A stretch of 54,099 nt of DNA from contig JAFDXI010000167.1 of assembly GCA_018268035.1 (NCBI GenBank), forward strand, positions 1 to 54,099, read 5' to 3'. The translations under genes and the position numbers were made by a program. The stretch is from Bacteroidota bacterium (GTDB lineage Bacteria; Bacteroidota; Bacteroidia; Chitinophagales; Chitinophagaceae). The notes under the pieces were generated by a model. The model saw nothing but the letters and a program-made list of their open reading frames with translations. It did not search any database and had not been told where the DNA came from. Below are positions 20,866 to 40,759 of this stretch, piece after piece. The stretch's first letter is position 1. Every line of letters starts with the position of its first letter.

Positions 20866-22356
20866 ATGAAGATAATTATTGATAATATAACAACGCTTTT
20901 TACTGACTATAAAAAGCTACCACCTGACCGAATAGAACAGTTACCCCGTAGTGGCAGCGACAGGATTTATTTTCGGATTTTTTGTGGTGATGAAAGTTTT
21001 ATTGCAACATATAACCTCAACGTAAAAGAGAATAAAACATTCATCGCTTTCAGCCGGCATTTCAAAGAAAAAGGTTTGCCTGTACCTGAGATTTTAGCTG
21101 TCAATGAGGAAGTGACTTTATATATCCAGGAAGACCTGGGTACAAGCTGCCTGCTGGATTTTCTTGAAAAAGAAAATTTTTCAGCACATGTTTTTGAATT
21201 GTATAAAAAAAGCCTTGAGCAATTAGCTCGATTGCAAGTGTTGGGTGATAAGGATATGGATTATGAATATTGCCTTACCGCAAAAAAATTCGGCAAACAG
21301 GCTATCATGAGCGACTTGTTGTATTTTAAATATTATTTTTTAGATACGTTGCAATTGCCTTATGACAAACAGGTGCTGATGGATGATTTTGAAGCCCTTG
21401 CCAGCTACCTCACCAAAACGGAGTATAAATATTTTATGTTCCGCGACTTTCAAAGCAGGAACATCATTGTCAATAATGAAGAAGTTTTTTTTATTGACTT
21501 CCAGGGCGGCATGAAAGGCGCTTTGCAATATGATGTGGCCAGTTTGTTATGGCAGGCAAAAGCTCAGTTGAGCGATGAATGGAAAAATGATTTATTACAA
21601 TATTATCTTGATGTGATTGATGGTTTGCTTGCTCATCCTGTTGACAGGCATATTTTCACCGGCCAGTTTGATGGATATGTTTTAATACGCATGTTGCAGG
21701 TGTTGGGCGCTTATGGTTTCAGGGGCCTGTTTGAACGCAAAGCCTATTTTCTCACCAGCATTCCTATCGCATTAAAAAACCTCGAAACATTTTTACAAAA
21801 CAATCGTGTTGGTATTGTAACACCTGAATTGACCAGGATGTTAAAAGCCATCACCAATGAAACTATTATACATCGTTTTGAACCGGTGCAGGCAAATGAA
21901 AATTCTCCGCTTGTTGTAACCATCATCAGCTTTTCATACAAGAAAGGCATACCGGTAGATGAGAGTGGCAATGGCGGTGGTTTTGTATTTGATTGCCGTG
22001 GCATGTACAATCCAGGAAGGTTTGAAGATTTTAAAACGCTCACAGGTCTGGATAAAAAAGTAATTGATTTTTTAGTGCAGCAAACGAAAATGAATGAGTT
22101 CCTGAATGGTGTGTATGACCTCGTTGATATTTCTGTTGAAGATTATCTGAAGCGAGGCTTCAGCAACCTGATGGTGAGTTTTGGATGTACAGGCGGACAG
22201 CACAGGAGTGTGTATGCTGCTGAACAAACTGCTGCCCATCTCATCAATAAATATAAAGTGAAAGTAAAACTCAGTCACCTGAACAAAGAAAATTGGGTTT
22301 TGCCTCCGGCACAAAAAGATGAATCAATCAATTCACCGGATTTTATCAAATCATAA
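20866..22356 (+). CDS. AmgK-like sugar kinase fused to RapZ C-terminal domain
   Basis: 496 residues with two modules. Residues about 1-330 are an aminoglycoside-phosphotransferase-fold kinase of the AmgK (anomeric MurNAc/GlcNAc kinase) type: a catalytic-loop equivalent FRDFQSRN (193-199; Arg replaces the usual His), the metal motif IDFQGG (210-215) and YDVASLL. Residues about 348-480 match the C-terminal domain of the RNase adaptor RapZ, with FSYKKGIPVD, FDCRGMYNPGR, TGLDKKVIDFL and GCTGGQHRSVYAAEQ (440-453). The RapZ N-terminal P-loop domain is absent. The stop overlaps the MurU-like gene start (TAATG). It likely phosphorylates amino sugars from cell-wall turnover; the RapZ part may sense GlcN6P-like ligands. 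Confidence 0.85.
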   Translation: MKIIIDNITTLFTDYKKLPPDRIEQLPRSGSDRIYFRIFCGDESFIATYNLNVKENKTFIAFSRHFKEKGLPVPEILAVNEEVTLYIQEDLGTSCLLDFLEKENFSAHVFELYKKSLEQLARLQVLGDKDMDYEYCLTAKKFGKQAIMSDLLYFKYYFLDTLQLPYDKQVLMDDFEALASYLTKTEYKYFMFRDFQSRNIIVNNEEVFFIDFQGGMKGALQYDVASLLWQAKAQLSDEWKNDLLQYYLDVIDGLLAHPVDRHIFTGQFDGYVLIRMLQVLGAYGFRGLFERKAYFLTSIPIALKNLETFLQNNRVGIVTPELTRMLKAITNETIIHRFEPVQANENSPLVVTIISFSYKKGIPVDESGNGGGFVFDCRGMYNPGRFEDFKTLTGLDKKVIDFLVQQTKMNEFLNGVYDLVDISVEDYLKRGFSNLMVSFGCTGGQHRSVYAAEQTAAHLINKYKVKVKLSHLNKENWVLPPAQKDESINSPDFIKS

Positions 22357-23123
22357 TGAAAAATAAACAAGCAAGTGAAAATGCACCGGCAGGGTATGTA
22401 AAGAAAGCTATGTTGCTTGCTGCAGGTTTTGGTACACGTTTGAAACCATTTACTGATCATCACCCTAAAGCATTGGCGCAGGTGAATGGGAAAACGCTTT
22501 TGCAGCGCAATATCGAATACCTGCAACGGTATGGTATTTACGATGTAATTGTCAATGTGCATCATTTTGCAGAACAGATTATTCAGGCCATCAGTGAAAA
22601 TGAAGGGTGGGGTAGTAGTGTATCTATCTCTGATGAAACAGATGCAATCCTGGAAACCGGCGGTGGGCTGAAAAGAGCTGCCTGGTTTTTTAATGATGCG
22701 GATGATTTTGTGTTGATGAATGTGGATATTTTAACTGATTTAGCATTGGATGAAATGATAGCATTTCATTTATCAAAAAAGCCCTTGGCCACATTGGCAA
22801 CTATCGGGAGGGAAACGTCGCGGTATTTTTTATTTGATGAAAACAATACGCTGTGTGGGTGGAAAAATATTAAAACCGGTGATGAAAAAATAATGCGCAG
22901 CAACTCAGTTATAACACCGAAAGCATTTAGTGGTTTGCATATTATCAGCAATGAAATTTTTTTGCTGATGCAACAAAAGGAAATAAAATTTTCTATGGTT
23001 GATGTGTATTTATCTTTATGTGTTCAACATGATATCCTTTCTTTTAATCATTCAGGTTCAAAGTTGATAGATGTTGGAAAACCGGAAAGTTTACAGATCG
23101 CTAATAACATCTTTCGTGAATGA
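22356..23123 (+). CDS. murU: MurU-like sugar-1-phosphate nucleotidyltransferase
   Basis: 255 residues with a Rossmann-like nucleotidyltransferase fold. Visible features are the N-terminal LLAAGFGTRLKPFT and PKAL, the LETGGGLK segment and the LMNVDILTD metal-site segment, in the order found in MurNAc-1-phosphate uridylyltransferase (MurU). Together with the preceding AmgK-like kinase it would complete the anomeric recycling route giving UDP-MurNAc or a related UDP/NDP sugar while bypassing de novo synthesis. Coupled to the kinase gene by a 1-nt stop/start overlap. Substrate choice is inferred from context; other hexose-1-phosphate substrates are possible. Confidence 0.8.
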   Translation: MKNKQASENAPAGYVKKAMLLAAGFGTRLKPFTDHHPKALAQVNGKTLLQRNIEYLQRYGIYDVIVNVHHFAEQIIQAISENEGWGSSVSISDETDAILETGGGLKRAAWFFNDADDFVLMNVDILTDLALDEMIAFHLSKKPLATLATIGRETSRYFLFDENNTLCGWKNIKTGDEKIMRSNSVITPKAFSGLHIISNEIFLLMQQKEIKFSMVDVYLSLCVQHDILSFNHSGSKLIDVGKPESLQIANNIFRE

Positions 23124-23315: not shown

Positions 23316-25778
23316 ATGCAGATACACAAAAAATCAATAATGCGTTTTATCAGCCTGCTCTTCTTTTTTGTTTTTGTTGCTATTTCAGGCGCTCATGCAC
23401 AAACTATTTTGAGTGGGTATGACCTTAGCTCTGTAAAAGTAGATCAGCTCAGTGATGCACAAATATTAAAGCTGAAGCAACAGTTAAATGCTTCCGGTAT
23501 TTCTGAAGACCAGGCTGAAAAAATTGCTATTGCTAAAGGGATGTCAGTTACTGAAGTACAAAAACTGAGGGCAAGGTTGCAACAGGTGCAAATTACTTCC
23601 ACTCAAAACAATCCTAATCTTGCTAATCAGCAATCCAACCAGTTCGGCGAAAATCGGAATGATTCAACTATTAACCGGTATCTCAGTGATACGATAGCAA
23701 GAAAACCATTGATTAACCCACGTATTTTTGGCGCTGAATTATTTAATAACCCTGCGCTTAATTTTCAACCGGAAATACCTGTGGCTACTCCTTTAAATTA
23801 TATTATTGGCCCCGGCGATCAGCTCAATATTAATGTATATGGTGTCCAGGAAACTACTATACCAGTAACAGTTTCGCCGGAAGGCAACATCATAATACCC
23901 AATGTGGGGCAAATGCAGGTATCGGGTTCCAGTATTGAATCAATTACTCAGCGCATCAAAACTCAAATGGGCAATACTGCTTATCCCACATTGCGTTCCG
24001 GCGCTTCAAAAATTAGTATAACTGTAGGTCAGATCAAAAGTATCAGCATCACAGTTATTGGCAGTAATAAACCCGGCAATTATACAGTGCCCTCATTGGC
24101 AACAGCTTTCAACGCATTATTTGCAGCAGGTGGGCCTTCAGAGTTTGGAAGCTTTAGAAATATTGAGTTGATAAGAAATAATAAATTGTTTAAAAAAATT
24201 GATCTCTATCATTTTCTTGTGAATGGTGACCAGAGTGATAATGTAACACTGCAAAACAATGATGTGATAAAGATTCCTTCCTATACTGCCAAAGTAATAA
24301 TAGATGGTTATGTAAAACGCCCGGGTATTTATGAAATGTTGCCTGGTGAAACGCTTCAAAATCTTTTGAGTTATTGTTCAGGGTTTACAGACAGTGCTTA
24401 TACTTCATCAGTAAAAATTGTGCAGTTTACAGGTAAAGAATTAAGTGTGAAAGATGTGGCTGTTGCTGATTTTACTAATTATCAAATGCAGGGTGGCGAT
24501 AGCGTAATCGTAAGCAGGATTTTAAACAGGTTTGCCAACAGAATTTCTTTGACCGGTGCAGTATATAGAGAAGGCATGTATGAACTAACAGATGGAATGA
24601 CGGTCAAAGACCTGATAAAAAAAGCTGATGGCTTGCGGGAAGATGCTTTTATAAAAAGGGCACAGATTTTCAGGTTGAATAAAGACCTTACCAAAGAAAT
24701 CCTTTCTTTCAACCCATCTGATACCATTGCTGAGGCAGGCATACTTTTACAAAGAGAAGACTCGGTAGTAATTACTTCAGTACTTGATTTGAAAGACCAG
24801 TATTTTATTTCTGTATTGGGTGAAGTAAGAGACCCTGGTTATTATGATTACCGCGACAGTATTACTTTAAAAGATGTGATCCTGCAAGCAGGTGGATTTA
24901 CTGATGCAGCATATCCTGAAAGAATTGAAGTGGCAAGATTGATACGCCGCGATACATTAACATCGGAAGATGTAAGAGCAAGTATGATTATTCATGTCAA
25001 CGGATTGAATGATTTAGGAACCCCACAAAAAAATATTACACTGCAACCTTCAGATATTGTAACTATAAAACGAAAGCCTGGTTATATGGCATTTCAATCA
25101 ATTACTGTTTCAGGACAGTTTCAATATCCAGGCCCTTATGTGTTGGAAAAAAGAGAAGAACGTGTCAGTGATATTATCAAACGTGCAGGTGGTTTCACTC
25201 CTGAAGCTTACCTGGAAGGCGCATATATCAAACGCAGCAATTTTGATGATAAAGACAACATAGCAAGGCAACAGGTAGTATCTAATATCGGCCAGCAACT
25301 CAATGATTCCAGCAATGTGCTTTTGCAACAACAGCAAAAAAGACAATATGACCAGATACCTCTTGATATAAAAAGTATCCTTGCTCGTCCCGGATCACCT
25401 GAGGATGTTGTGCTGAGTGCAGGAGATGAATTAATAGTGCCCAAATACAATGCTCAGGTTAAAATCAGTGGCAGTGTTTTATTCCCTACACAAATCCCAT
25501 ACAATGAAAAGTATAACATCAATGATTATATTTCTGCTGCAGGTGGGTTTGCTGAAAACGGCAGAAAGAATAAAACATATATTGTTTATGCTAATGGTAA
25601 AGCGGCAGCAACGAAGAGTTTTTTATTCTTCAGAAATCAGCCAGAAGTATTGCCAGGCGCTGAAATTATTGTACCTGAAAAAGAACAAAAACAAAAACTC
25701 TCTACACCAGAATTTATTGGCATAGCCAGCGCTGTTGCTTCATTGGCAGGTGTTGTAATTGCAATTCTGAAATTATAA
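23316..25778 (+). CDS. Wza-like polysaccharide export outer-membrane protein, about six SLBB domains
   Basis: 820 residues. A signal peptide (MRFISLLFFFVFVAISGAHA) begins at an internal ATG (23340), which may be the true start; the ATG at 23316 adds eight residues. After a helical, Gln-rich segment (about 35-105), the poly_export domain begins at about 160 (YIIGPGDQLNINVYG). It is followed by about six SLBB beta-grasp repeats, each opening with a G(x)V(x)(x)PG(x)Y-like strand. The protein ends with a hydrophobic helix (about 797-818, FIGIASAVASLAGVVIAI). It should form the outer-membrane/periplasmic export channel of a Wzx/Wzy-type glycan system. First gene of the 17-kb operon. Confidence 0.88.
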   Translation: MQIHKKSIMRFISLLFFFVFVAISGAHAQTILSGYDLSSVKVDQLSDAQILKLKQQLNASGISEDQAEKIAIAKGMSVTEVQKLRARLQQVQITSTQNNPNLANQQSNQFGENRNDSTINRYLSDTIARKPLINPRIFGAELFNNPALNFQPEIPVATPLNYIIGPGDQLNINVYGVQETTIPVTVSPEGNIIIPNVGQMQVSGSSIESITQRIKTQMGNTAYPTLRSGASKISITVGQIKSISITVIGSNKPGNYTVPSLATAFNALFAAGGPSEFGSFRNIELIRNNKLFKKIDLYHFLVNGDQSDNVTLQNNDVIKIPSYTAKVIIDGYVKRPGIYEMLPGETLQNLLSYCSGFTDSAYTSSVKIVQFTGKELSVKDVAVADFTNYQMQGGDSVIVSRILNRFANRISLTGAVYREGMYELTDGMTVKDLIKKADGLREDAFIKRAQIFRLNKDLTKEILSFNPSDTIAEAGILLQREDSVVITSVLDLKDQYFISVLGEVRDPGYYDYRDSITLKDVILQAGGFTDAAYPERIEVARLIRRDTLTSEDVRASMIIHVNGLNDLGTPQKNITLQPSDIVTIKRKPGYMAFQSITVSGQFQYPGPYVLEKREERVSDIIKRAGGFTPEAYLEGAYIKRSNFDDKDNIARQQVVSNIGQQLNDSSNVLLQQQQKRQYDQIPLDIKSILARPGSPEDVVLSAGDELIVPKYNAQVKISGSVLFPTQIPYNEKYNINDYISAAGGFAENGRKNKTYIVYANGKAAATKSFLFFRNQPEVLPGAEIIVPEKEQKQKLSTPEFIGIASAVASLAGVVIAILKL

Positions 25779-25808: not shown

Positions 25809-26849
25809 ATGGCCGACAAGGATGATATATCGTTAAAAGAGGTAGTGCACATTCTACATGATTGGATCAAATACCTGCTTTCCAAATGGATGATTATTTT
25901 GATAGTGGGAATTCTCTCAGGTGTATTAGGAATTGTGTATGCATTTTTTTCGAAACCAAAATATGAAGCTGCTCTAAGTTTTATTTTGGCAAATTCAAAT
26001 GAAAACAGTTCAGGTATTATGGGGCTTGCCAGCCAGTTTGGTATTGATTTGAGTGGTGATAATAATGACGTATTTACCGGTAATAACATTATAGCATTGA
26101 TGAAGTCGAGGCGTATGGTACAACAGGCTTTATTGAAAAAACCAGAAGGCAGTAATTTATCGCTTTTAAATATTTATTGCAAAGAAAATAAACTGGATGA
26201 AGCCTGGAAAAAAGATGAACGTATGGCTAAAGTTTATCCCTTCCCCAATTCGGCTTCACAAATGACAGGCTTACAAGATAGCCTGTTCAGGGATATTTAT
26301 GATAACGTGCAGAAAAGTCTGCTCGATGTATCAATGCCTGATAAAGACAAAAGCATTTATACAGTTGTAACCTCTTCAACCAACGAAAAATTTTCTTATT
26401 ATCTTACTACTTACCTCGTGGATGTAACATCTGCTTTTTATATCAGCACAAAGACAAGTGTTGCACAGCAAAACCTCGACATGCTACAGCATGAAGCTGA
26501 TAGCCTGCGCAATTTATTAGGTAATACAATCACTGCTGCTGCTGCGCAAACTGATGTAACATTTAATTTAAACCCTGCCTACCAGGTGCAACGTTCTGCT
26601 GCACAGCAAAGCCAGGTAAGCGCTTCTGCATTGGGGCAGGCTTATGGGCAAGTGTTGCAAAACCTGGAACTCGCAAAAATTTCCCTGCAAAAAGAAACAC
26701 CACTCTACCAGATTGTGGATGTACCCCAATTGCCATTAGTGATGCAGAAAAAAAGCAAGCTGATATATTTAATCATTGGCGGCATTTTAGGAGGCATTGT
26801 TATCTGCGGGTTTTTGATTGTGAAACGCGTTTTATCAAACCTGAAATAA
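25809..26849 (+). CDS. Wzz-like chain-length determinant / polysaccharide co-polymerase
   Basis: 346 residues with a transmembrane helix near each end (about 30-50 and 320-340) and a large periplasmic region between them, containing coiled-coil-prone Gln/Ala-rich helices (about 225-295). A proline-rich strand (IVDVPQLPLV) precedes the second helix, as in Wzz/PCP proteins. There is no cytoplasmic BY-kinase domain, so it is a PCP-1 or PCP-2b-like form. It follows the export protein by 30 nt and overlaps the next gene by 1 nt (TAATG). Confidence 0.82.
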   Translation: MADKDDISLKEVVHILHDWIKYLLSKWMIILIVGILSGVLGIVYAFFSKPKYEAALSFILANSNENSSGIMGLASQFGIDLSGDNNDVFTGNNIIALMKSRRMVQQALLKKPEGSNLSLLNIYCKENKLDEAWKKDERMAKVYPFPNSASQMTGLQDSLFRDIYDNVQKSLLDVSMPDKDKSIYTVVTSSTNEKFSYYLTTYLVDVTSAFYISTKTSVAQQNLDMLQHEADSLRNLLGNTITAAAAQTDVTFNLNPAYQVQRSAAQQSQVSASALGQAYGQVLQNLELAKISLQKETPLYQIVDVPQLPLVMQKKSKLIYLIIGGILGGIVICGFLIVKRVLSNLK

Positions 26850-28027
26850 TGAAGAAAGAAACAATTGTTTATACCGCGGGCACGTGGGATATGTTTCATA
26901 TCGGTCACCTGAATATTTTTAAAAAGTCAAAAGAGTTAGGAACAAAACTGGTAGTGGGCGTGAGCACTGATGAATTAGTGGCTTCCTATAAAGTAGCGCC
27001 ACCGGTGATACCTTATAAAGACAGGGTGGAAGTGGTGAAAAGTTGCAAGTATGTTGATGAAGTGGTGAAGCAATCAAAGCTCATGGACATAAATCAACTG
27101 AAAGAAATAAAACCAGACATCATTACCATTGGAGATGACTGGAAAACAAAATACCTGGAAGGATTGGTGTGGGCAAAAAATCAACCCAACATCAAAGTGG
27201 TTTACCTGGAATATACCAGCCGTATCAGTTCAACACAGATTAAGGATACTATAAAAGCAGGTTGGCAGGTTGACAAGAATATTATTGCTGCCAATCAAAA
27301 TGGTTTGTTTGGAAAAAATGTTTTGATAACCGGTGCAAGTTCAGGCATTGGCGCTGCTATTGCTGAATGTTTTGCAAAGGCTGGAAGCAATATCGGCATA
27401 CATTATTCTTCGAATGATGATGGAGCTTCATCAATGAAAAAAAAGTTATCAAAATTTACTGAAGTAAAACTTTATAAGAAAGATTTTAATGATTCATCAA
27501 TAAACCTGGTCAACCAGTTTGTAAAAGATTTTGGTTCTATTGATATCCTCATTAATAATGCCGGGACTATGTCACCGGTATCAATTTTTGATTTAGACAG
27601 CCATGAATTTAACCGTGTTTTTGACGTGAACACAAGGGCGCCTTTTCTTTTGGCAAAAGATGCATTTTTACACATGAAAGAAAAAAAATACGGCAGGATA
27701 ATAAACATCAGTTCTTTTGTGATTAACTATGGCATGGGTAGAAATAATTCGATTCAATATGCAGCCAGTAAAGCATCTCTTGAGACATTGACAAAAGGCC
27801 TTGCACGCATGGGCGCTGAACATAATATTTTGGTGAATGCCATCCGTCCAGGTGTTATCATGACAGCCATGCAGGAAAACAGGAAGGATTTAAAAGAACG
27901 GATAAAACTGATACCTGTAAAAAGAATGGGTAAGCCTGAAGACATTGCAGAAATGTGTATCCATCTTTGTTCTGATAAAGGAAGTTTCATAACCGGTGAA
28001 GTAATCAGTATTGCTGGTGGAGAATAA
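26849..28027 (+). CDS. fusion of TagD-like cytidylyltransferase and SDR oxidoreductase
   Basis: 392 residues. Residues 1-140 are a glycerol-3-phosphate cytidylyltransferase-like domain: AGTWDMFHIGH with the HIGH-type motif (17-20), PYKDRVEVVKS, and RISSTQIK (125-132), matching the RTxGISTT region of TagD. Residues about 153-392 are a classical short-chain dehydrogenase: TGASSGIG (161-168), NNAG (236-239) and catalytic Ser288, Tyr304 and Lys308 (YAASK). Both halves look intact. The arrangement predicts one protein that reduces a phosphorylated or free keto sugar and activates the polyol phosphate as a CDP derivative (compare CDP-ribitol synthase, built from different domains). The TagF-like gene two positions downstream is the expected user. 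Confidence 0.85.
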   Translation: MKKETIVYTAGTWDMFHIGHLNIFKKSKELGTKLVVGVSTDELVASYKVAPPVIPYKDRVEVVKSCKYVDEVVKQSKLMDINQLKEIKPDIITIGDDWKTKYLEGLVWAKNQPNIKVVYLEYTSRISSTQIKDTIKAGWQVDKNIIAANQNGLFGKNVLITGASSGIGAAIAECFAKAGSNIGIHYSSNDDGASSMKKKLSKFTEVKLYKKDFNDSSINLVNQFVKDFGSIDILINNAGTMSPVSIFDLDSHEFNRVFDVNTRAPFLLAKDAFLHMKEKKYGRIINISSFVINYGMGRNNSIQYAASKASLETLTKGLARMGAEHNILVNAIRPGVIMTAMQENRKDLKERIKLIPVKRMGKPEDIAEMCIHLCSDKGSFITGEVISIAGGE

Positions 28028-28028
28028 A

Positions 28029-29282
28029 ATGATGCTTCAGAAAATAAAGCATCCGCTGGTAGGCAATTTTTTTTCGCTTGTATTGTTGCAATGCGTGAAT
28101 TATGCCCTTCCGCTGATAACTGTTCCCTATTTATTCAGGGTATTAAATGTTTCCAATTATGGTTTGATAAATTTCGCCAATGCCTTCATCCAGTATTTTA
28201 TGGTGTTTACTGATTTTGGCTACAATCTCTCTGCCGTAAAACTGGTGGCTGAAAACAGGGGTGATACCCATAAGCTGTCTGATATTTTCAACCGTGTAAT
28301 GTTTTCAAAATTTTTATTGCTGTTGATTGGCCTTGTGGTCATGTTATCTGTCGTTTTTTATTTTGATAAATTCTCTTCAGATAAAACTTTATATATTTTA
28401 AGTTACGGAATGGTATTGGGCAGTGTGTTGTTCCCGGTCTGGTTTTTTATGGGTATGGAAAAAATGAAATTCATCACCATCATCACCATCATCACCAGGT
28501 CGCTGGCGCTTATTCCGATTTTTGTTTTTGTAAAAAAGAGCGATGATTATTTATTGGTGCCATTAATTAATTCAGCAGGCGCTATCTTGTCTGGCATCAT
28601 TGGAATAGTAGTCGTTAAAAAAGTATTCAAATTAAAATATGCTGTCCCTACTTTTAAAGAAATGATGCATTCATTAAAAGACAGTTCGCAATATTTTCTT
28701 TCACGTGTTTCTGTTTCGGTCTATACCATCAGCAATGTGTTTACACTTGGCTTGTTTAGCAACACAACAATGGTGGGTTATTACAGTGCGGCCGAAAAAT
28801 TGTTTTTAGCTTTACAAAATGCCTATGTGCCTGTCAACAATAGCCTCTATCCTTACATGACCAAAACAAAAAATGTAACAGTATATAAAAAGATATTTTC
28901 ATTTTTAACTATTGCCAACACATTGCTGATTATCGGTATGCTCTTTTATACGAATGATATCATTTACCTTATCTATAAAATCACTGATAAAGAAAGTATC
29001 ATTGTTTTGCAGTTGTTACTTGTCGCCTGTTTGTTAATCATTCCTTCAATACTGTTGGGCTATCCTTTTTTAGGGGCAATGGGTTATTCAAAATATACTA
29101 ACAAATCCGTTATCACTTCTTCCATCTTCCATTTGTGTGGGTTATTTTTCCTTGTTCTTACCAATCAACTCAGCATTTATACCGTTGCAGGCATGCTCAT
29201 CATAACAGAAGGCGTTGTGTGTGGTATCCGTGCCTGGGGCGCTTATAAATTCAAATTGTTTAAACCGATTAAAACCACCTGA
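28029..29282 (+). CDS. Wzx-type polysaccharide flippase
   Basis: 418 residues and about 12 hydrophobic segments, typical of MATE/MOP-superfamily oligosaccharide flippases. The N-terminus contains PLITVPYLFRVLNVSNYGLINFANA, the family hallmark, here split for reading. The ATG at 28029, one base after the preceding stop, is chosen over an upstream in-frame TTG. It should move undecaprenyl-linked repeat units across the inner membrane. A 9-bp tandem repeat (about 28472-28497) is read as Ile-Thr-Ile repeats near residue 150. Confidence 0.88.
   Translation: MMLQKIKHPLVGNFFSLVLLQCVNYALPLITVPYLFRVLNVSNYGLINFANAFIQYFMVFTDFGYNLSAVKLVAENRGDTHKLSDIFNRVMFSKFLLLLIGLVVMLSVVFYFDKFSSDKTLYILSYGMVLGSVLFPVWFFMGMEKMKFITIITIITRSLALIPIFVFVKKSDDYLLVPLINSAGAILSGIIGIVVVKKVFKLKYAVPTFKEMMHSLKDSSQYFLSRVSVSVYTISNVFTLGLFSNTTMVGYYSAAEKLFLALQNAYVPVNNSLYPYMTKTKNVTVYKKIFSFLTIANTLLIIGMLFYTNDIIYLIYKITDKESIIVLQLLLVACLLIIPSILLGYPFLGAMGYSKYTNKSVITSSIFHLCGLFFLVLTNQLSIYTVAGMLIITEGVVCGIRAWGAYKFKLFKPIKTT
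28472..28497 (+). repeat. 9-bp tandem repeat inside the flippase gene
   Basis: Nearly three copies of CATCACCAT. In the flippase frame it reads as Ile-Thr-Ile steps within a membrane segment; unit length is a multiple of three, so copy-number change would keep the frame. Confidence 0.8.
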
Positions 29283-29287
29283 ATTTT

Positions 29288-30496
29288 TTGGCAGCAATAA
29301 GGACATTGCTCATTTATATTTTTTATTACATCGCTTTCCTGTTGCCACGCAATAAGAAGTTGTGGTTATACAGTAGCCTGAACGGGAAATTCATTGATAA
29401 CTCAAAATACTTTTTCCTGTTTGCACAGGAACATTGTAAAGATGTACGTCATGTCTGGATTTCTGATTCTGAAGACACGATTAAATTTCTTCGTCAGAAA
29501 GGGTTTGAAGCCTATCATCTTGATTCAACAAAAGCTAAAAAACTTTCACTGCGTGCAGGCGCTTTTATTTACAGCAGCCATATCACTTCCATTTGTAATG
29601 CTGCTTTTGCCGGTGGCGCTTTCAGGTTTAATTTATGGCACGGCATCCCTTTGAAAAAAATTGAATACGACATTCGTAAAGGCCCACTACGTTATTTATA
29701 CAATCCTGCAGGGTTCAGAGAATGGTGGAAACGTTTCTGCACCTCGCCTGATTTAATCCGCCGCAATGATGCAGTGCTTACCACATCACAAGAGCTGATA
29801 GAAATATTCAGCAGTGCATTTAAACTTCCCCCTTCAAAAATTTTTATTGGCCAATACCCACGGTTGATGCCTTTTAGCTGGAACAAACAGCAATTGCAAC
29901 AACACATTGAACAATTGGAAAATCCTGCCATGCTGGATGCCATCAGCCAGTTTAAAAATTTTTCTTCAGTAATAATTTATATGCCCACCTGGCGGGATGA
30001 TAACCCCGCATTCATTAATGAAGCTATCCCTGATTTTAAGATGCTGGATGAAACATGCAGGCAAAAGAATATTTTATTCGTATTGAAGCTGCACGTGAAC
30101 ACGGTTTTCAATTCAGATATCAGCGGTTATAAAAATATCCTGTTGCTCAACAACAACCTTGACATGTATCCTTTACTGCCTTTCTCTACAACTCTACTGA
30201 CTGATTATTCTTCCATATTTTTTGATTACGCTGTTTTAAACAGGAGAATTATTTTTTATCCTTTTGACCTGGCTCAATATCAATCAAAAAGCAGGGAGTT
30301 GTATTTTGATTTTGCAACAATAACAAAAGGTGAAACAGTCGCATATACTTTTGATGAACTATTGGAAACAATTGCAGGCGATGATTCAAAACCTGTTGAA
30401 GCGCCTGGCTACAAAAAATTTGTGAACGAGGGTTTTGATTATGATGCTGAAATAAATTTTGTAAGACATAAACTGGGTTTTAAAGAAAATGACTGA
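29288..30496 (+). CDS. TagF/TagB-like CDP-glycerol (alditol) phosphotransferase
   Basis: 402 residues. A hydrophobic N-terminal segment (about 6-20) is followed by a GT-B-like fold with motifs of the CDP-glycerol glycerophosphotransferase family: NLWHGIPLKKI (His118), PTWRDD in the C-terminal half and LLTDYSSIFFDYA, which binds the CDP donor in TagF. No ATG exists near the 5' end; a TTG at 29288 is assumed. Enzymes of this family add or polymerise glycerol- or ribitol-phosphate on a glycan. The cytidylyltransferase-SDR fusion upstream would supply the donor. It overlaps the next glycosyltransferase gene by 8 nt. Confidence 0.85.
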   Translation: MAAIRTLLIYIFYYIAFLLPRNKKLWLYSSLNGKFIDNSKYFFLFAQEHCKDVRHVWISDSEDTIKFLRQKGFEAYHLDSTKAKKLSLRAGAFIYSSHITSICNAAFAGGAFRFNLWHGIPLKKIEYDIRKGPLRYLYNPAGFREWWKRFCTSPDLIRRNDAVLTTSQELIEIFSSAFKLPPSKIFIGQYPRLMPFSWNKQQLQQHIEQLENPAMLDAISQFKNFSSVIIYMPTWRDDNPAFINEAIPDFKMLDETCRQKNILFVLKLHVNTVFNSDISGYKNILLLNNNLDMYPLLPFSTTLLTDYSSIFFDYAVLNRRIIFYPFDLAQYQSKSRELYFDFATITKGETVAYTFDELLETIAGDDSKPVEAPGYKKFVNEGFDYDAEINFVRHKLGFKEND

Positions 30497-31481
30497 TTCA
30501 ACCAACCCATTGGTTTCTGTAATCATTCCATGTTATAATGCTGCAAAGTTTTTAGACAAAGCAGTGCAGTCCGTCATGCAACAGACTTATTCAAACCTTG
30601 AAATAATTATTGTAAATGATTGCTCTGCCGATAACAGTGCTTTGATAATTGAACAACTCCAGAAACAGGATAACAGGATTGTTGTTTTAAATAATGCTGA
30701 AAACCTCGGCATTTCAAAAACACTGAATAAAGCAATTGAAAACTGTACTGGAAAATATATTGCCCGCATGGATGCAGATGATATATGTTTTCCTGACCGT
30801 ATAAAAAAACAGGTGGATTTTCTTGAACAAAATCCGGGCATTGCAATTTGTGGTGGCAGCTTTATAAAAATTAATGAAGATGGCAACAAAACAGGAGATG
30901 TAAAATTTCCGCGTGGTAATGACATTTTAAAAGCGGAGTTATTGTTTTATTGCCCATTCGCACATCCGACTATGATGATGCGTAAACAGATGTTGAAAGA
31001 TGTTGGTTTATACAAAGACATGGCGCCTGCAGAAGATTATGAATTGTGGTTAAGCATTGCAGAAAAATTTAAAGTGGATAACCTGCCTGATTACCTGATT
31101 TACTATCGCATGCATGGCAGCAGTATCTCTGCCAACCGTGGAGATAAATTGATAACCATGTTGCAAAAGATTACCAGGATGCACCTGCAGTCATCAGGCT
31201 TTGCAGAGAATTTTCTTTCATATCATTTGAAATTTTTAGAAGGTACCTGGTATAGAAAAACTTCTGTGGGAGAATTGAACAAGATAAAATTTTGGAAAAA
31301 AGAATTATTGCAAATACACAACAGCAGCAAAGTAGTTGAAAAAGTTTTTGATAAATATATTTCACTGGCTATGCTGAGTATTTTAAAAAGTAAAACAAAT
31401 TCACTACAGGTGAAAATAAAAGCGGCAGCAAAACTTTTAACCATCAATCCATTTATCACCATCAAACATTTTAACAGGTAG
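30489..31481 (+). CDS. glycosyltransferase family 2
   Basis: 330 residues with a GT-A fold. The N-terminus VSVIIPCYNAAKFLDKAVQSV, the IVNDCSADNS loop and the metal-binding MDADD (about 93-97) are diagnostic, and the acceptor-side AEDYELWL (about 180) contains the ED catalytic motif. The C-terminal 100 residues are helical and basic. It probably adds one sugar to the lipid-linked repeat on the cytoplasmic face. Specificity cannot be read. The start overlaps the TagF-like gene. Confidence 0.88.
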   Translation: MTDSTNPLVSVIIPCYNAAKFLDKAVQSVMQQTYSNLEIIIVNDCSADNSALIIEQLQKQDNRIVVLNNAENLGISKTLNKAIENCTGKYIARMDADDICFPDRIKKQVDFLEQNPGIAICGGSFIKINEDGNKTGDVKFPRGNDILKAELLFYCPFAHPTMMMRKQMLKDVGLYKDMAPAEDYELWLSIAEKFKVDNLPDYLIYYRMHGSSISANRGDKLITMLQKITRMHLQSSGFAENFLSYHLKFLEGTWYRKTSVGELNKIKFWKKELLQIHNSSKVVEKVFDKYISLAMLSILKSKTNSLQVKIKAAAKLLTINPFITIKHFNR

Positions 31482-32627
31482 ATGAAAATAATGTTGGTGG
31501 CAGATATGTTGGGTTATGGTGGCAGGGAAAAAGTGGTGATTGACCTTGCCAATGGCCTTTGTGCACAGGGGCATGAAGTGTTGTTGGTTACCTTGTCTCA
31601 TGATCAAAATGAACAGGCGCATTTATTAAATGGTGTCATAAAATTTTTTCAACTCCCGGCAACATATCAAAGCCTGGGCGGTATAAAAGCTATAGGCGCC
31701 TGGATCAAATGCCTCCCCGCTTTTATCAAATTATTGAAAGCAGAAAAGCCGGACATTGTACATACACATGTTTTTTTTCAGCGTCTGTTGCTGGCTGCTG
31801 TTGCCATAAAGTTTTCAGGCATAAAAGCGCGGCATTACCACACCATCCACACTTCGGGTTTGTTTTATAAGGAAACGGGTTTTATTAATCATATCAGGTT
31901 GCAGACAGAAAGGCTGGCAGTGAAAATGAACAGGGCTTTTTTGATTGCCATTTCTAAAGAAGTGTATGAAAATATTGCGAAGCCATTCAAAAGATCTGCA
32001 GCAGGAATTGCACTCATCTACAATGGTGTGGATGACAAACAATTTGACTATAGCCTGAAGGGAAAAGTGAGTAGAACATTATTTGGGCTGGATGAAAATA
32101 AACTGGTGGTTACTTACCTGGCGAGGATAACGGAAGGCAAAGACCATATCACTTTGTTGAAAGCCTGGAAAATGGTTGCACCACAAGCGCCACGTGCAAT
32201 ACTTTGCCTGGCAGGTGATGGTGAGTTGAAACTTGCAACACAGGAATTTTGCCGGCGGGAAAACCTGGAACAGCAGGTGGTTTTTTTGGGAACGGTGAAA
32301 GATGTCCCAAAACTTTTGGCAGTAACGGACGTTGCAGTTTTCACTTCTTTGTTTGAAGGGTTTGGCATTGCAGTATTTGAGCAGATGCTGATGAAAATCC
32401 CGATGGTGTCCACCAACATCCGGCCTGTCAGCGATTTTATTTTGCCAAACGAAAATGGTTTTCTTTTTGCGCCCGGCGATGCCACTGCGCTTGCTACATT
32501 CATTATACGGCTCATCAATGACGGCTCTTTGCGGGAAAGAATAGGAGGGGCCGGGTATAAAACAGCGCAACAATTTTCAATGGAAAAAATGATCAGGAAA
32601 CACGAAGAAGCGTATGCCGCGGTTTAA
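31482..32627 (+). CDS. glycosyltransferase family 4
   Basis: 381 residues with a GT-B fold. N-terminal GYGGREKVVIDLANGL (nucleotide-sugar/acceptor loop) and DIVHTHVFFQRLL are followed by a C-terminal donor domain with YLARITEGKDHITLLKAW, CLAGDGEL and the EFGFGI-like SLFEGFGIAVFEQM (the E-x7-E motif). It is retained on the cytoplasmic side; the donor is not known. The ATG follows immediately after the preceding TAG stop, and its end overlaps the polymerase gene by 14 nt. Confidence 0.88.
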   Translation: MKIMLVADMLGYGGREKVVIDLANGLCAQGHEVLLVTLSHDQNEQAHLLNGVIKFFQLPATYQSLGGIKAIGAWIKCLPAFIKLLKAEKPDIVHTHVFFQRLLLAAVAIKFSGIKARHYHTIHTSGLFYKETGFINHIRLQTERLAVKMNRAFLIAISKEVYENIAKPFKRSAAGIALIYNGVDDKQFDYSLKGKVSRTLFGLDENKLVVTYLARITEGKDHITLLKAWKMVAPQAPRAILCLAGDGELKLATQEFCRRENLEQQVVFLGTVKDVPKLLAVTDVAVFTSLFEGFGIAVFEQMLMKIPMVSTNIRPVSDFILPNENGFLFAPGDATALATFIIRLINDGSLRERIGGAGYKTAQQFSMEKMIRKHEEAYAAV

Positions 32628-33948
32628 GCCTGTAAAGTTTATTGAAAAGATACTGTTGTTTATCTGTTTCTTTTTTTACCTGTACCCGGTGCAGTTTCTG
32701 TATATGCCTGTATCCACGCGCTTGTTGCTTGCTTTCACCGGTTTGATTGTTTTGGTTTTCACAGTTACCAAGCAGGCGAATGAGGCCAAAGATATTTTTA
32801 TCAGCAAAAACTTCATCCGCTACCTGCTGGCTTTTGCTGCCATCATCTTTATTTCAGCAGTCAGCATCATCATCAATGGCACTACCGATATGGAGTTTAT
32901 CAAATATCCCTTATCGCTTGTTTTTATTTTGCTGGCAGGTTACCTGCTGCATTTTTTAACCAGGAAGGTGTATGGGAAAATCAATTATATCGTTATCCTT
33001 GATTTTATTATCGCTGCGGTATTGGTGCAGGTGTTGATTGCCCTGCTGGCTTTTATGATACCTGCTTTTAGTGAGGCGTTGCTGCATATCCAGAATTTCA
33101 GTTCTCTGGAAGCTTCCAAGCTGGAATCCACTACGGGCTTCAGGCTGAACGGTTTTGGGTCAACATTTTTTGGCGCCGGTGTGATTAACGGATTTGCTTT
33201 GCTGAGCATTGCAGTGATGGTGAAGCAACCCAAAATTTCCGGGAGGCGCATCCTCTATCTTTCTTTTGCGTTTGTGGCCATACTTGCATTGGGCGCCATG
33301 ATGGCCAGGACAACACTGGTGGGTGGGTTAATGGGTATTTTATTTTTATTCATACCCAAAACATCCATCAGCAAACGCATGCTGAAGATCAAAACAAAAT
33401 TTTTTGCCTATATGCTTTTGATCCCGTCAGCCATTATCGTTATCGTATTTGCGCTGTTCCCGTCATTGGCAGAAAGTATTGAAAATGCTGCGGCCTTCGG
33501 TTTTGAAATGTTTGTCAATTATTCCGAAACAGGCAGTTTCAGCACTGCCTCCACAGATATTTTGGAAAATATGTATGTGTTTCCGGACAACGCCAAAACC
33601 TATATTATTGGCGATGGCCATTATTATATCAAACCCGGCGACCCTGCTTATGGATATTATAAAGGCACAGATGTTGGTTACCTTAGGTTGATATATTATT
33701 TTGGTATTGCAGGGCTGCTTATTTATTTGATGTTGCAATACACTGCGGTGATCAATGCCTTGAAAAATAACCCCGGCGATAATGTATTTCGCATATATAT
33801 TTTATTTGTTTTTGTTCTTTTGCTCATCAATAATTTAAAAGGGTTTACTGACTTGTTTTTTTTGATCAATCTTTTTGCTTTTACTGCCATTCAGTCCCAG
33901 CGCCCTAAAAGTGAAAACAGCCCGCTTTTTGCGCCCGGCATCCAATAA
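32614..33948 (+). CDS. Wzy-like O-antigen polymerase/ligase
   Basis: 444 residues, about 10-12 membrane helices, and one large periplasmic loop (about 280-350) containing GDGHYYIKPGDPAYGYY. The helix following it (YLRLIYYFGIAGLLIY) and MARTTLVGGL before it match the O-antigen ligase/polymerase (PF04932-type) family. It likely joins repeat units in the periplasm. As usual, members are recognised mainly by topology and context. It sits between two glycosyltransferase genes. Confidence 0.8.
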   Translation: MPRFKPVKFIEKILLFICFFFYLYPVQFLYMPVSTRLLLAFTGLIVLVFTVTKQANEAKDIFISKNFIRYLLAFAAIIFISAVSIIINGTTDMEFIKYPLSLVFILLAGYLLHFLTRKVYGKINYIVILDFIIAAVLVQVLIALLAFMIPAFSEALLHIQNFSSLEASKLESTTGFRLNGFGSTFFGAGVINGFALLSIAVMVKQPKISGRRILYLSFAFVAILALGAMMARTTLVGGLMGILFLFIPKTSISKRMLKIKTKFFAYMLLIPSAIIVIVFALFPSLAESIENAAAFGFEMFVNYSETGSFSTASTDILENMYVFPDNAKTYIIGDGHYYIKPGDPAYGYYKGTDVGYLRLIYYFGIAGLLIYLMLQYTAVINALKNNPGDNVFRIYILFVFVLLLINNLKGFTDLFFLINLFAFTAIQSQRPKSENSPLFAPGIQ

Positions 33949-33956
33949 TATTCATT

Positions 33957-35087
33957 TTGCAGACAACTAAAGAAAACATAGTTATTGTAACTGCGTACCC
34001 GGTCAATAACCTTACTGCCGGCCAGGGAAATTTGAATAGGATTGCCGACGGTTTGATCTCCCGGGGTTTTACAATAAGCCTTGTTTGCTTTTCTTACCCG
34101 GGCCACACTATTGAAAGGCCGGAAAGGTTTGAAGAAATTTTATTTATCCGCCAGGAAAGGCCACAACGTTTTTTGTATGCATTGTTACTGGGATTTTTTT
34201 TCCCGCTTTTTACCGTCCGGTTTTCTTTCAGGGCATTATTTTTTATCAGGAAAAGGAGCCGGGATGCGAAACTTATTTTTTTGGACTACAGCCAGGTGTT
34301 CATTTATGCTTTGTTCCTGAAAAAGGTGAGACAAAAAATTTGCATGTTTGCGCATGATGTCATTTATCAAAAATATACACGGGTTTTTAAAAACAAGTGG
34401 TATGGGCCAATGGCAATGCGATATATACAATATACCGAAAAAACCATGTTGCACCAAAGTGATAATATCAGTGTGCTCTCATTTAAAGATAAATTGCTTT
34501 TGAATGAAAATTATGCGATCAATCCTGTGGTGAGTATTTTAAAACGAAGATTTACTCCCGGGCCTCTGATGAATTCGAAGATTGATTTGAACCATTTTGT
34601 ATTTCTTGGTGCATGGAACAGGGATGAAAACCTGGACGGGCTGAAATGGTTTATAGAAAATGTGTATCCATCATTGCCCCGGCAATTTTTGTTTACTATA
34701 GTTGGGCCTGGTATTAAAGAGGCATTTAAAAATAATTTACCTCCGGCATTTAAAGCTGTTGGTTTTGTGGATGACCTTGCCCTTGTTTTACAATCTTCTT
34801 CGGCTTTGATCTCTCCATTGTTTTTGGGTGCCGGAATAAAATTTAAAGTTTTAGACGCTTTTAAGAATGGTTGCAGGGTAATTGGCACGGATATTTCATT
34901 TGAAGGCATAGAAATTGAAACCAGTGATATTTTGCTGAAAGCAAATGCCGCAGAAGAATTTGTTAAGCAGATACATTACTGTTCACAAACCGGGTACGAT
35001 CCTGAAAATATCACGGATTTGTTGTGTCAATTTATCAACCGGTTTGATGATACGCTTGAATGGATAATTAGAAAGGCTACATCCTGA
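33957..35087 (+). CDS. glycosyltransferase family 1/4-like
   Basis: 376 residues, GT-B like. The N-terminal half contains NLTAGQGNLNRIADGL and an amphipathic or hydrophobic segment (about 60-80) that may touch the membrane. The C-terminal half has LGAWNRDENLDGLKWFI, FTIVGPG and ISPLFLGAGIKFKVLDAFKNG, typical donor-site stretches of this family. No ATG is available; TTG at 33957 is assumed, 8 nt after the polymerase stop. The donor and acceptor are unknown. Confidence 0.82.
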   Translation: MQTTKENIVIVTAYPVNNLTAGQGNLNRIADGLISRGFTISLVCFSYPGHTIERPERFEEILFIRQERPQRFLYALLLGFFFPLFTVRFSFRALFFIRKRSRDAKLIFLDYSQVFIYALFLKKVRQKICMFAHDVIYQKYTRVFKNKWYGPMAMRYIQYTEKTMLHQSDNISVLSFKDKLLLNENYAINPVVSILKRRFTPGPLMNSKIDLNHFVFLGAWNRDENLDGLKWFIENVYPSLPRQFLFTIVGPGIKEAFKNNLPPAFKAVGFVDDLALVLQSSSALISPLFLGAGIKFKVLDAFKNGCRVIGTDISFEGIEIETSDILLKANAAEEFVKQIHYCSQTGYDPENITDLLCQFINRFDDTLEWIIRKATS

Positions 35088-38282: not shown

Positions 38283-39338
38283 ATGAATAAAAATATTTTA
38301 ATCACCGGTGGTGCTGGATTTATCGGATCGCATGTGGTGCGGTTGATGGTGAACAAATACCCGCAGTATAAAATAATTAACCTGGATGCACTCACTTATG
38401 CAGGCAACCTGGAAAATTTAAAGGATATTGAAAGTGCACCGAACTATAATTTTGAACATGTCAATATTTTAGAGCTTGACATGCTGATAAATGTTTTTGA
38501 ACAGCATGATATTACTGATGTCATCCATCTTGCGGCTGAAAGTCATGTGGATCGCTCCATACTTTCACCGATGGATTTTATCTATACCAATATTGTAGGC
38601 ACTATAAATCTTTTAACTGTTGCAAAAAATTATTGGAGCACAGACCTGAATAATCATCGTTTCCATCATGTGTCCACCGATGAAGTGTATGGTACCTTAG
38701 GTGCAGAAGGTTTTTTTACTGAGTCCACAGCTTACGCACCTAATTCACCTTATTCAGCCAGCAAAGCTTCATCAGATCATTTTGTGCGGGCTTATGGTGA
38801 AACATTTCATATCCCTTATGTGATCACCAACTGTTCCAATAATTATGGGCCTAATCATTTTCCTGAAAAATTAATACCTCTATTTATTAATAATATTATT
38901 CATAAAAAACCTTTGCCTGTTTATGGTAAAGGTGAAAATACAAGGGACTGGTTGTATGTAATTGATCATGCCCGTGCAATAGATTTGGTTTTTCATGAAG
39001 GCAACAATGGTGAACATTATAATGTTGGCGGATTTAATGAATGGAAAAATATTGACCTTGTAAAGTTGTTGTGTAAACTGATGGATGAAAAACTACAACG
39101 CACTGCAGGAGAGAGTGAAAAGCTGATTACTTATGTAAAAGACAGGCCAGGCCATGATTTGAGATATGCTATTGATGCCTCAAAAATCAATAAAGAACTG
39201 GGATGGGAACCAACAGTAACTTTTGAAGAGGGTTTAAGTGCAACAATAGACTGGTATTTGCAAAATGAAGAATGGTTGAATCATGTAACCAGTGGAGCCT
39301 ATCAAAATTATTATACAGAACAATACGATAACAGGTAA
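38283..39338 (+). CDS. rfbB: dTDP-glucose 4,6-dehydratase
   Basis: 351 residues, an extended SDR. Visible are TGGAGFIGSHVVR (NAD binding), STDEVYG with the catalytic Thr-Asp-Glu, and YSASKASSDH with the Tyr-x3-Lys pair, plus NNYGPNHFPEK, which is specific for the RmlB/RfbB family. It makes dTDP-4-keto-6-deoxyglucose. It follows a 117-nt gap with a possible internal promoter and overlaps rfbC by 1 nt. Confidence 0.95.
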   Translation: MNKNILITGGAGFIGSHVVRLMVNKYPQYKIINLDALTYAGNLENLKDIESAPNYNFEHVNILELDMLINVFEQHDITDVIHLAAESHVDRSILSPMDFIYTNIVGTINLLTVAKNYWSTDLNNHRFHHVSTDEVYGTLGAEGFFTESTAYAPNSPYSASKASSDHFVRAYGETFHIPYVITNCSNNYGPNHFPEKLIPLFINNIIHKKPLPVYGKGENTRDWLYVIDHARAIDLVFHEGNNGEHYNVGGFNEWKNIDLVKLLCKLMDEKLQRTAGESEKLITYVKDRPGHDLRYAIDASKINKELGWEPTVTFEEGLSATIDWYLQNEEWLNHVTSGAYQNYYTEQYDNR

Positions 39339-39889
39339 TGAAAATTGAATCCACGCCACTTGCTGGCTGTTACATCATACACGATACAGTATTTAAAGAT
39401 AGCCGCGGATATTTTTTTGAGAGTTTTAATGCACAAAAGTTTGAAGCATTAACTGGTATCGCTACCCCATTTGTGCAGGACAACCAATCAGCATCAACCA
39501 GAGGTGTATTGCGTGGGTTGCACATGCAGATAGGAGTACATGCACAGGCAAAACTGGTGCGTGTTTTAGAAGGCAGTGTTTTGGATGTGGCGGTTGATCT
39601 TAGAAAATATTCTCCTACGTTTGGTAAAAGTTTTTCGATAGAACTTACCGGCGATAATCAAAAACAGTTTTATATACCACGTGGTTTTGCTCATGGTTTT
39701 GTAGTGTTGAGTGATGTAGCTGTATTTTTTTATAAATGTGATAATTTATATAACAAAGATTCAGAGCTGGGGATAATGTATAATGATCCCGGTTTAAATA
39801 TTAACTGGCAATTGCCAGAGTCATCATTGATTCTTTCAGATAAAGACAAAAAAAATTTTCATCTTGCAGATGTTTTACATCGCTTATAA
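39338..39889 (+). CDS. rfbC: dTDP-4-dehydrorhamnose 3,5-epimerase
   Basis: 183 residues, the usual length of RmlC. The cupin shows DSRGYFFESF, the catalytic His in LRGLHMQ and FYIPRGFAHGFVVLSD, followed by the YKCDNLYNKDSE substrate-lid segment. It epimerises C3 and C5 of dTDP-4-keto-6-deoxyglucose. The start overlaps the rfbB stop; rfbA follows after 9 nt. Confidence 0.95.
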   Translation: MKIESTPLAGCYIIHDTVFKDSRGYFFESFNAQKFEALTGIATPFVQDNQSASTRGVLRGLHMQIGVHAQAKLVRVLEGSVLDVAVDLRKYSPTFGKSFSIELTGDNQKQFYIPRGFAHGFVVLSDVAVFFYKCDNLYNKDSELGIMYNDPGLNINWQLPESSLILSDKDKKNFHLADVLHRL

Positions 39890-39898
39890 ATTCAACAG

Positions 39899-40759
39899 AT
39901 GAAGGGAATAATTTTAGCAGGCGGCTCAGGTACCAGGTTGTATCCAATCACCAAAGGTATCAGCAAACAAATTATGCCTGTGTATGATAAACCAATGATC
40001 TATTACCCGCTTTCGGTTTTGATGTTGGCAGGTATCAATGAAATATTAATCATCACTACACCTGATGATGCAGCACAGTTTAAAAGGTTATTGGGCACTG
40101 GTGAAGAATTAGGTTGTGTGTTTTCTTATGCAGTACAGGAAAAACCCAATGGGCTTGCACAGGCTTTTGTGATTGGTGAAGAATTTATAGGGAAAGAAAA
40201 AGTAGCGTTGATTTTGGGTGATAATATTTTTTACGGTTCAGGTTTCAGTAAGCTGGTGCAATCATTCAATGATATAAATGGTGCAGCAATTTTTGCGTAT
40301 GAAGTGAACGACCCTGAAAGATATGGTGTGGTAGAGTTTGATGCCAATTTTAAAGCATTGTCTATAGAAGAAAAACCAAAACAACCTAAATCAAATTATG
40401 CAGTACCGGGTTTATATTTTTATGATAATGATGTCATCAACATTGCAAAAAATATTCAGCCATCACCAAGAGGTGAATATGAAATTACAGATGTCAACAG
40501 GGTTTATTTGAAAAAGGGAAAATTAAATGTTGGTGTAATGAACCGTGGTGTTGCCTGGCTGGATACCGGTACATTTGATTCTTTGGCTGATGCCAGTGAA
40601 TTTGTAAAAGTGATTGAGAAAAGACAATCACAAAAAATAGGATGTATTGAAGAAGTAGCTTTTAGAATGGGTTTTATCAATCATGCACAGTTATTGAAAT
40701 TAGCTGAGTATTATTCTAAAAGTGGTTATGGTGAATACCTTAAAAAAATTAAACCTTAG
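39899..40759 (+). CDS. rfbA: glucose-1-phosphate thymidylyltransferase
   Basis: 286 residues, full length for RmlA. The pyrophosphorylase signature [14 protein letters not shown] with [16 protein letters not shown] is intact, along with LGDNIFYG (metal site) and the YEITDVN region. It makes dTDP-glucose and is usually feedback-inhibited by dTDP-rhamnose. It is the last gene of the operon, followed by a strong bidirectional terminator. rfbD, needed for dTDP-rhamnose, is not in the window. Confidence 0.95.

Follow-up and report, generated by a model that had tools for sequence, protein, structure and literature searches.

A cytidylyltransferase and a reductase in one reading frame

The DNA analyzed here (the window) is a stretch of 54,099 nucleotides, positions 1 to 54,099 of contig JAFDXI010000167.1 in the Bacteroidota assembly GCA_018268035.1 (Chitinophagaceae). 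It carries a tight polysaccharide operon in which a single gene encodes a cytidylyltransferase (CT) fused to a short-chain dehydrogenase/reductase (SDR) (Table 1). Pfam places PF01467 (CTP_transf_like) on residues 8-132 (E 2.3e-20), adh_short_C2 on residues 162-391 (E 6e-50) and adh_short on residues 156-346 (E 2.4e-44). The ATG of the fusion gene overlaps the wzz stop codon (TAATG), and the wzx ATG lies 1 base past the fusion stop. A codon-usage score trained on 22 window genes was used to examine the linker. Over the 15 codons counted, the linker scored 0.39 bits/codon in frame and 0.02 and -0.85 in the two shifted frames, and the CT and SDR parts scored 0.30 and 0.38 bits/codon. The AlphaFold2 model, built from a 23-row alignment, has a mean pLDDT of 86 and a pTM of 0.67, and falls below 50 pLDDT in two stretches (127-142 and 294-299). 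Based on the open frame, the coding-like linker, the tight operon packing and the model, the CT-SDR fusion, known from a single assembly, is best read as real. The initial annotation had described a CT and an SDR in one chain, and the single frame, its Pfam domains and the linker bear this out.

Table 1. Features of the window around the CT-SDR fusion gene
Feature	Position	Strand	Details
Wza-like polysaccharide export protein	23316..25778	+	SLBB, Poly_export
Wzz-like chain-length protein	25809..26849	+	PF02706
CT-SDR fusion gene	26849..28027	+	392 aa, one open frame
CT domain (PF01467)	26870..27256	+	aa 8-136; HIGH, GDDW, YTSRISST
Inter-domain linker	27257..27304	+	aa 137-152; codon usage coding-like; partly in low-confidence model stretch 127-142
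Classical SDR domain	27305..28024	+	aa 153-392; Asn261/Ser289/Tyr304/Lys308
Wzx-like flippase	28029..29282	+	PF01943
CDP-glycerol glycerophosphotransferase family protein (GPT)	29288..30496	+	PF04464, E 1.7e-48
GT2 glycosyltransferase	30489..31481	+	domain search
GT4 glycosyltransferase	31482..32627	+	domain search
Polytopic membrane protein	32614..33948	+	no Pfam match; putatively Wzy-like by inspection
GT4-like glycosyltransferase	33957..35087	+	domain search
Three genes with rmlB-/rmlC-/rmlA-like domains	38283..40759	+	GDP_Man_Dehyd/Epimerase, dTDP_sugar_isom, NTP_transferase; gene names putative

Catalytic motifs of the two halves

The CT half keeps the HIGH motif (H17, H20), Lys48 and GDDW, and the RISSTQIK motif of the initial annotation is part of EYTSRISSTQIK. 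Alignment to TagD puts Tyr122 at the position of Arg113, a residue that PMC8262930 describes as essential in TagD, and Arg125 at the position of Gly116. The claim that both halves keep full catalytic motifs therefore stands for HIGH, TGASSGIG and Ser-Tyr-Lys but not for these two TagD positions. A 121-row alignment was assembled from the CT frames of loci L030-L146 (E <1e-12), some of them near-duplicates, together with TagD and Fom1. Tyr occupies the Arg113 position in 95 of the 121 rows, the window and Fom1 among them, so Tyr122 is a trait of the clade and not damage. On the same distribution, a broken or dead CT was rejected. Judged by sequence, the CT is TagD-like and not a proven GCT: PF01467 and HxGH agree with the TagD-like label first given to it, but the score of 87 bits against the GCT equivalog model (TIGR01518) does not reach the 165.4-bit cut-off.

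The SDR half carries TGASSGIG, NNAG and the Asn, Ser, Tyr and Lys residues listed in Table 1, in invariant alignment columns. Strand beta-2 does not end in an acidic residue, which suggests that the SDR uses NADPH. The relatives found are FabG-like SDRs of at most 41% identity, none of them close and informative, and the six in the alignment are 38-40% identical. The score against the FabG model TIGR01830 was 192.7 bits (cut-off 297.75), and the SDR half lies outside the FabG-like group of the weakly resolved SDR tree. Pfam detects only SDR-type domains in this half and no PF13685 fold, and a search of the PDB with the model returned SDRs only among the best 50 matches. Recent duplication of some other SDR gene in this genome was rejected as the source of the SDR half, the best of 23 other matches being 36% identical.

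A syntenic operon carries a different reductase

The gene order is Wzz, fusion, Wzx, GPT, GT2, GT4, which places the GPT second downstream of the fusion. The GPT matched the TarF model at 4.3e-26 and the TarL model at 6.4e-15, both far under cut-off, and is the likely user of the fusion product. Of 394 family genomes searched at E≤1e-30, two gave a GPT of this type, namely the window genome and G043, and in both a CT and a reductase adjoin it. The G043 locus (L242) holds the matching operon segment. Identities to the window are 58% for Wzz (over 305 aa), 65% for Wzx, 51% for the GPT and 57% for GT2 (over 193 aa), with Wzz and GT2 cut by the contig ends. The slot filled by the fusion in the window is occupied in L242 by a 142-aa CT, only 36% identical to the fusion CT, and a separate 357-aa reductase. 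This reductase belongs to PF13685 (E 3.7e-29), and of the NCBIfam models it matches best the one for NAD(P)-dependent glycerol-1-phosphate dehydrogenase (G1PDH; E 1.8e-62, 211 bits, cut-off 413). Comparison of this reductase with the fusion SDR showed no meaningful similarity.

A second CT and G1PDH-like pair was found in G227, where the two proteins (PF01467 and PF13685) are 64% and 52% identical to those of L242 and apparently belong to a different polysaccharide locus. Like the fusion, the G043 and G227 pairs combine a CT with a small-polyol-phosphate-type reductase, and the G043 pair has the same place in the operon. They differ from it in being two genes, in a PF13685 reductase unrelated to the SDR and in a CT only 34-36% identical. 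It looks as if a CT-reductase cassette has been exchanged with unlike reductases, the SDR being a non-homologous replacement of the G1PDH-like enzyme; the SDR therefore probably performs the reductase step. The resemblance to the glycerol-1-phosphate dehydrogenases EgsA/AraM would be one of operon position and not of homology. Three plasmid regions with G1PDH-like genes were also inspected; in one, the neighbors are a CDP-alcohol phosphotransferase and a member of the phosphocholine cytidylyltransferase family, and the other two have no cytidylyltransferase.

Two further features of the window stand apart from the fusion. Beside the polysaccharide operon, positions 20866-23123 encode an unusual fusion of an AmgK-like APH kinase to a RapZ C-terminal domain, followed directly by a MurU-like nucleotidyltransferase (NCBIfam matches under cut-off). 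On the minus strand, 40819-41220 encodes a Lys/Ala-rich protein with AKKA repeats that is histone H1-like by inspection.

Rarity of the architecture

The CT query had relatives at E≤0.001 in 252 of 395 phylum genomes. Among the 30 of these loci fetched, an SDR lies within the CT open reading frame only in the window, and the nearest CT (56% identical) is a stand-alone gene. None of the best 80 genome_contigs CT loci is fused to an SDR (0/80), nor is any of 80 viral-contig CT loci. In the family set, 14 of 394 genomes matched at E≤1e-14; six loci were cut out, and in the five besides the window's the CT frame contains no SDR. Among the family matches listed, several frames are as long as a fusion between a CT and phosphoenolpyruvate (PEP) mutase, and the EDKxxxxxNS motif was checked in G711 (L249) and L035. 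In L249, 5759-10295 encodes such a CT-PEP mutase fusion, then a phosphonopyruvate decarboxylase-like thiamine pyrophosphate enzyme, an iron alcohol dehydrogenase and a weak PF04464 match, a likely hydroxyethylphosphonate surface module. Eight genus genomes gave six other CT matches of 26-28% identity.

The whole protein was also used as a query, in a scan of 395 class genomes with four candidates scored per genome. Five genomes matched at E≤1e-44, the window's included: G629 and G1044 match the fusion over residues 2-391 with one stop inside, and so have two adjacent genes, and in G343 and G417 the match is confined to the SDR half. A whole-protein search, dominated by the SDR half, returned no other full-length relative among the matches listed, and a scan of viral contigs returned no relative. 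At least 29 plasmid records covered 80% of the query, and among the 15 matches listed there was no single-gene CT-SDR; 0 of 240 phage records covered 80%. Structure comparison with BFVD aligned 378-486 columns of the fusion model to three giant-virus proteins of 585-635 aa (A0A1V0SGE7, A0A3G5A578 and A0A1V0SKJ3) named cytidylyltransferase or oxidoreductase/dehydrogenase. These are possible analogous fusions and weigh against uniqueness. Searches of an open-access library returned no description of a PF01467-SDR fusion. The CT-SDR fusion is apparently rare in the collections scanned. Its description as new-looking holds to that extent: no other single-chain PF01467-SDR protein occurs in these sets, and the statement applies to them only.

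Relatives of the two halves and their neighborhoods

A 61-row CT tree grouped the window CT with Bacteroidales CTs (99/99). It lies apart from the L242/L248 pair, TagD, Fom1 and the CTs of adjacent CT|SDR gene pairs (L033, L063, L118 and L134; 100/98). The SDRs of these pairs form a separate clade (100/99) with one viral-contig SDR in a 33-row tree in which the window SDR falls outside every supported group. Bootstrap support in this tree is unsettled, and the window SDR was flagged as a long branch that may be wrongly excluded from a supported clade.

The CTs of the sister clade adjoin a class V aminotransferase in 10 of the best 80 genome_contigs loci, the short contig L071 being without one, and a PF04464-type protein also adjoins. 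The closest NCBIfam model of the aminotransferase is 2-aminoethylphosphonate aminotransferase, under cut-off. In L067-L070, L072-L077 and L060, Bacteroidales CTs have a PF04464-type gene and a class V aminotransferase as neighbors, with LicD also present in L074. Such loci may make a CDP-amino-alcohol, for example CDP-serinol or CDP-ethanolamine.

Neighboring CT and SDR genes were found in several settings. In Candidatus Symbiothrix, a polysaccharide locus (L134) has PF04464, CT and SDR genes one after another at 2679-5183. The three families are shared with the window and stand side by side, but they are separate genes, and the CT and SDR come from other clades. In L063 and L118, both Bacteroidales, a CT and an SDR accompany a CDP-alcohol phosphotransferase (CDP-OH_P_transf), and the same transferase was matched in L033, L312 and L313. 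The Bacteroidales operon seen in L063, L118, L312 and L313 has the order CT, SDR, CDP-alcohol phosphotransferase, lysophospholipid acyltransferase. Three of the 80 viral-contig CT loci (L161, L162 and L164) have DUF2284, SDR, CT and LicD-family genes together, which suggests a surface-modification module on phage-like elements. As background, three SDR queries gave an SDR match near the CT in 2 of the best 80 genome_contigs loci (L118 and L134). Most CT-SDR associations found adjoin a transferase family that uses CDP-alcohols; L051 is the exception.

Proposed function and alternatives

We consider it fairly probable that the fusion is a bifunctional CDP-alditol synthase, most likely one that converts dihydroxyacetone phosphate (DHAP) to glycerol phosphate and then to CDP-glycerol, feeding the GPT. 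The SDR half would reduce a small keto-phosphate with NADPH, DHAP being the likeliest substrate, and the HxGH cytidylyltransferase half would couple the product to CTP to give CDP-glycerol or a close CDP-alditol. The GPT would then transfer the polyol phosphate onto the repeat unit. In an alternative order, the CTP step would come first and the CDP-ketone would be reduced later, as in Campylobacter jejuni HS:5. A CDP-alditol product had been suggested from the gene itself, and this route is supported by the position of the GPT, the CT and G1PDH-like swap in L242 and the GPT, CT and SDR neighbors in L134. The context evidence for a CDP-alditol synthase is good, and the domain fusion is apparently rare. 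A more specific version is tentative and on balance doubtful: the SDR half would be a new SDR-type glycerol-phosphate dehydrogenase that replaced the archaeal-type G1PDH-like enzyme, and the fusion would make sn-1 or sn-2 CDP-glycerol from DHAP in one chain as an independent Bcs1-like fusion. PF13685 had no match over cut-off in the window genome. Searches of an open-access library for CDP-2-glycerol and glycerol-2-phosphate gave nothing informative, only the annotation of pneumococcal gtp1-3.

Several observations weigh against the proposed function. The window genome has a GpsA-type PF01210 protein, and plain sn-glycerol-3-phosphate, presumably supplied in this way, would therefore need no extra reductase; a different configuration or a different polyol is thus indicated. 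The breadth of the SDR fold family does not allow the substrate to be pinned. On the CT side, the RfaE adenylyltransferase domain model (80.5 bits) follows close behind the GCT model, whose cut-off is itself not reached, and TagD Lys46 is replaced by Ala50, where the nearest Bacteroidales CTs carry Val or Met. The contig of L242 is 5.7 kb long and comes from a draft that is 83% complete, and with GPTs just 51% identical the donors of the two operons could differ. The substrate of the sister-clade CTs may be an amino-alcohol phosphate, as suggested by the adjoining aminotransferases and PF04464-type protein. Finally, a PfkB-type kinase, a CT, an SDR and an ABC-type ATPase (assigned by eye) adjoin in L051 (3.4 kb) with no CDP-alcohol transferase; this CT is probably an HldE-type enzyme.

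A phosphonate substrate (hydroxyethylphosphonate or 2-aminoethylphosphonate) made in the window genome was considered and rejected. None of the three PF13714 loci of this genome carries the PEP-mutase motif EDKxxxxxNS, which is present in the controls L249 and L035, and a phosphonate substrate is therefore unlikely.

The other explanations differ in how well they account for the same data. The product could be a different alditol, with a pentulose-5-phosphate converted to CDP-ribitol in the manner of Bcs1 or to another C4-C6 CDP-alditol. This alternative overlaps in part with the CDP-glycerol proposal and is unlikely. It agrees with the logic of Bcs1/Acs1, with the departure of the CT pocket from TagD and with the inclusion in PF04464 of the ribitol-phosphate polymerase TarL, to which the GPT has a weak match. 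The syntenic replacement in L242, however, is a G1PDH-like protein, and the GPT scores higher with TarF than with TarL, both far under cut-off.

It is also possible, and in our estimate quite unlikely, that the two activities are merely co-localized, the SDR serving a different precursor such as a nucleotide sugar and the CT making a CDP-linked compound from an ordinary metabolite. The GpsA-type protein and the distance of the SDR from its FabG-like relatives are in keeping with this idea, but the exchanged slot in L242 pairs the CT with a small-polyol-phosphate-type reductase.

An artifact, in which loss of a stop codon in assembly or sequencing fused two adjacent genes, is improbable. The architecture is known from one assembly, a second fused homolog was not found in the sets scanned, an internal TTG at 27305 could serve as an SDR start and the G629 and G1044 pairs are split by just one in-frame stop. 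Against this stand a linker that has no stop and has coding-like codon usage, albeit over 15 codons only, and tight operon junctions at both ends of the gene.

Origin by joining a Bacteroidales CT|SDR pair, mostly of the lipid-type operon and with an SDR acting on a ketosphingoid-type lipid, was rejected as extremely unlikely: the G629 and G1044 matches and the identification of the SDR BT_0972 as a 3-ketosphinganine reductase in PMC9278070, with putative orthology to the pair SDRs, speak for it, but the window CT falls with the aminotransferase-linked CTs (99/99) and not the pair CTs (100/98), the pair SDR clade (100/99) lacks the window SDR (with the long-branch caveat), identity to the pair SDRs is just 28-29% and the same-clade pair of L134, next to a PF04464 gene, belongs to a polysaccharide locus and not to a lipid operon. 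The CT tree is firmly against such an origin and the SDR tree less firmly, and these placements make it improbable that the fusion arose from the pairs by joining.

If the CDP-alditol synthase assignment is correct, the single-chain combination of reduction and cytidylylation would have evolved independently here, with a cytidylyltransferase that is non-homologous. Polysaccharide loci would swap whole CDP-alcohol cassettes, in which the CT is combined with an aminotransferase, a G1PDH-like enzyme, a PEP mutase or an SDR, and would retain the flippase and transferase. CDP-alditol chemistry would then be predictable from cassette content. The fusion would also provide a candidate SDR-type glycerol-phosphate dehydrogenase that can be put to the test.

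Comparison with known systems

Bcs1/Acs1 of Haemophilus influenzae is a CDP-ribitol synthase with an N-terminal IspD-type CT and a C-terminal SDR-type reductase in one chain. The substrate of Bcs1 is ribulose-5-phosphate, and the product is a CDP-alditol for a polyol-phosphate polymer. The fusion has the same order of domains in a single chain, and the same logic is proposed for it. Unlike the IspD-type domain, the fusion CT belongs to PF01467, another superfamily, and has no PF01128 match at E≤0.001. The fusion would thus share its mode of action with Bcs1/Acs1, but the difference in CT family keeps it outside that group.

PMC10918830 names xylulose 5-phosphate for the H. influenzae enzyme, and the title of its reference 48 indicates that reduction precedes. 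The same paper describes the C. jejuni proteins HS5.18 and HS5.17, which make CDP-6-D-glucitol; in HS:5, activation comes first and the CDP-ketose is then reduced (PMC10918830). Like the fusion, this system combines a CT with an SDR-superfamily reductase; it is encoded in a capsule locus and makes a CDP-alditol, the kind of product proposed for the fusion. As described there, it differs in being two proteins, of PF01128 and PF01370, and in activation before reduction. The contrast with IspD-type analogs drawn in the initial annotation is upheld by these family assignments, and Bcs1 fits the same division.

TagD/TarD/GCT enzymes share PF01467, HxGH, GDDW and the S-T/S-T tail with the fusion CT, and a PF04464 protein lies in the same operon. 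The fusion CT departs from TagD in lacking RTxGISTT with Arg113, for which it has YTSRISST with Tyr122, in Arg125 and Ala50, in its fusion to an SDR and in its score under the GCT cut-off. Fom1 is similar to the fusion in having a PF01467 domain with Tyr at the Arg113 position, N-terminal to another pathway enzyme. The partner in Fom1 is the PEP mutase of the fosfomycin pathway, and CTs of the Fom1 type branch as a clade of their own (100/100). PF01467 fusions are known: PMC6697681 gives 23.6% as the share of PEP mutases that carry one. Pfam found no PEP mutase domain in the fusion protein. The pairing of a CT with an SDR is unusual, yet by analogy it appears to resemble the known two-in-one enzymes that follow the Bcs1/Acs1 logic.

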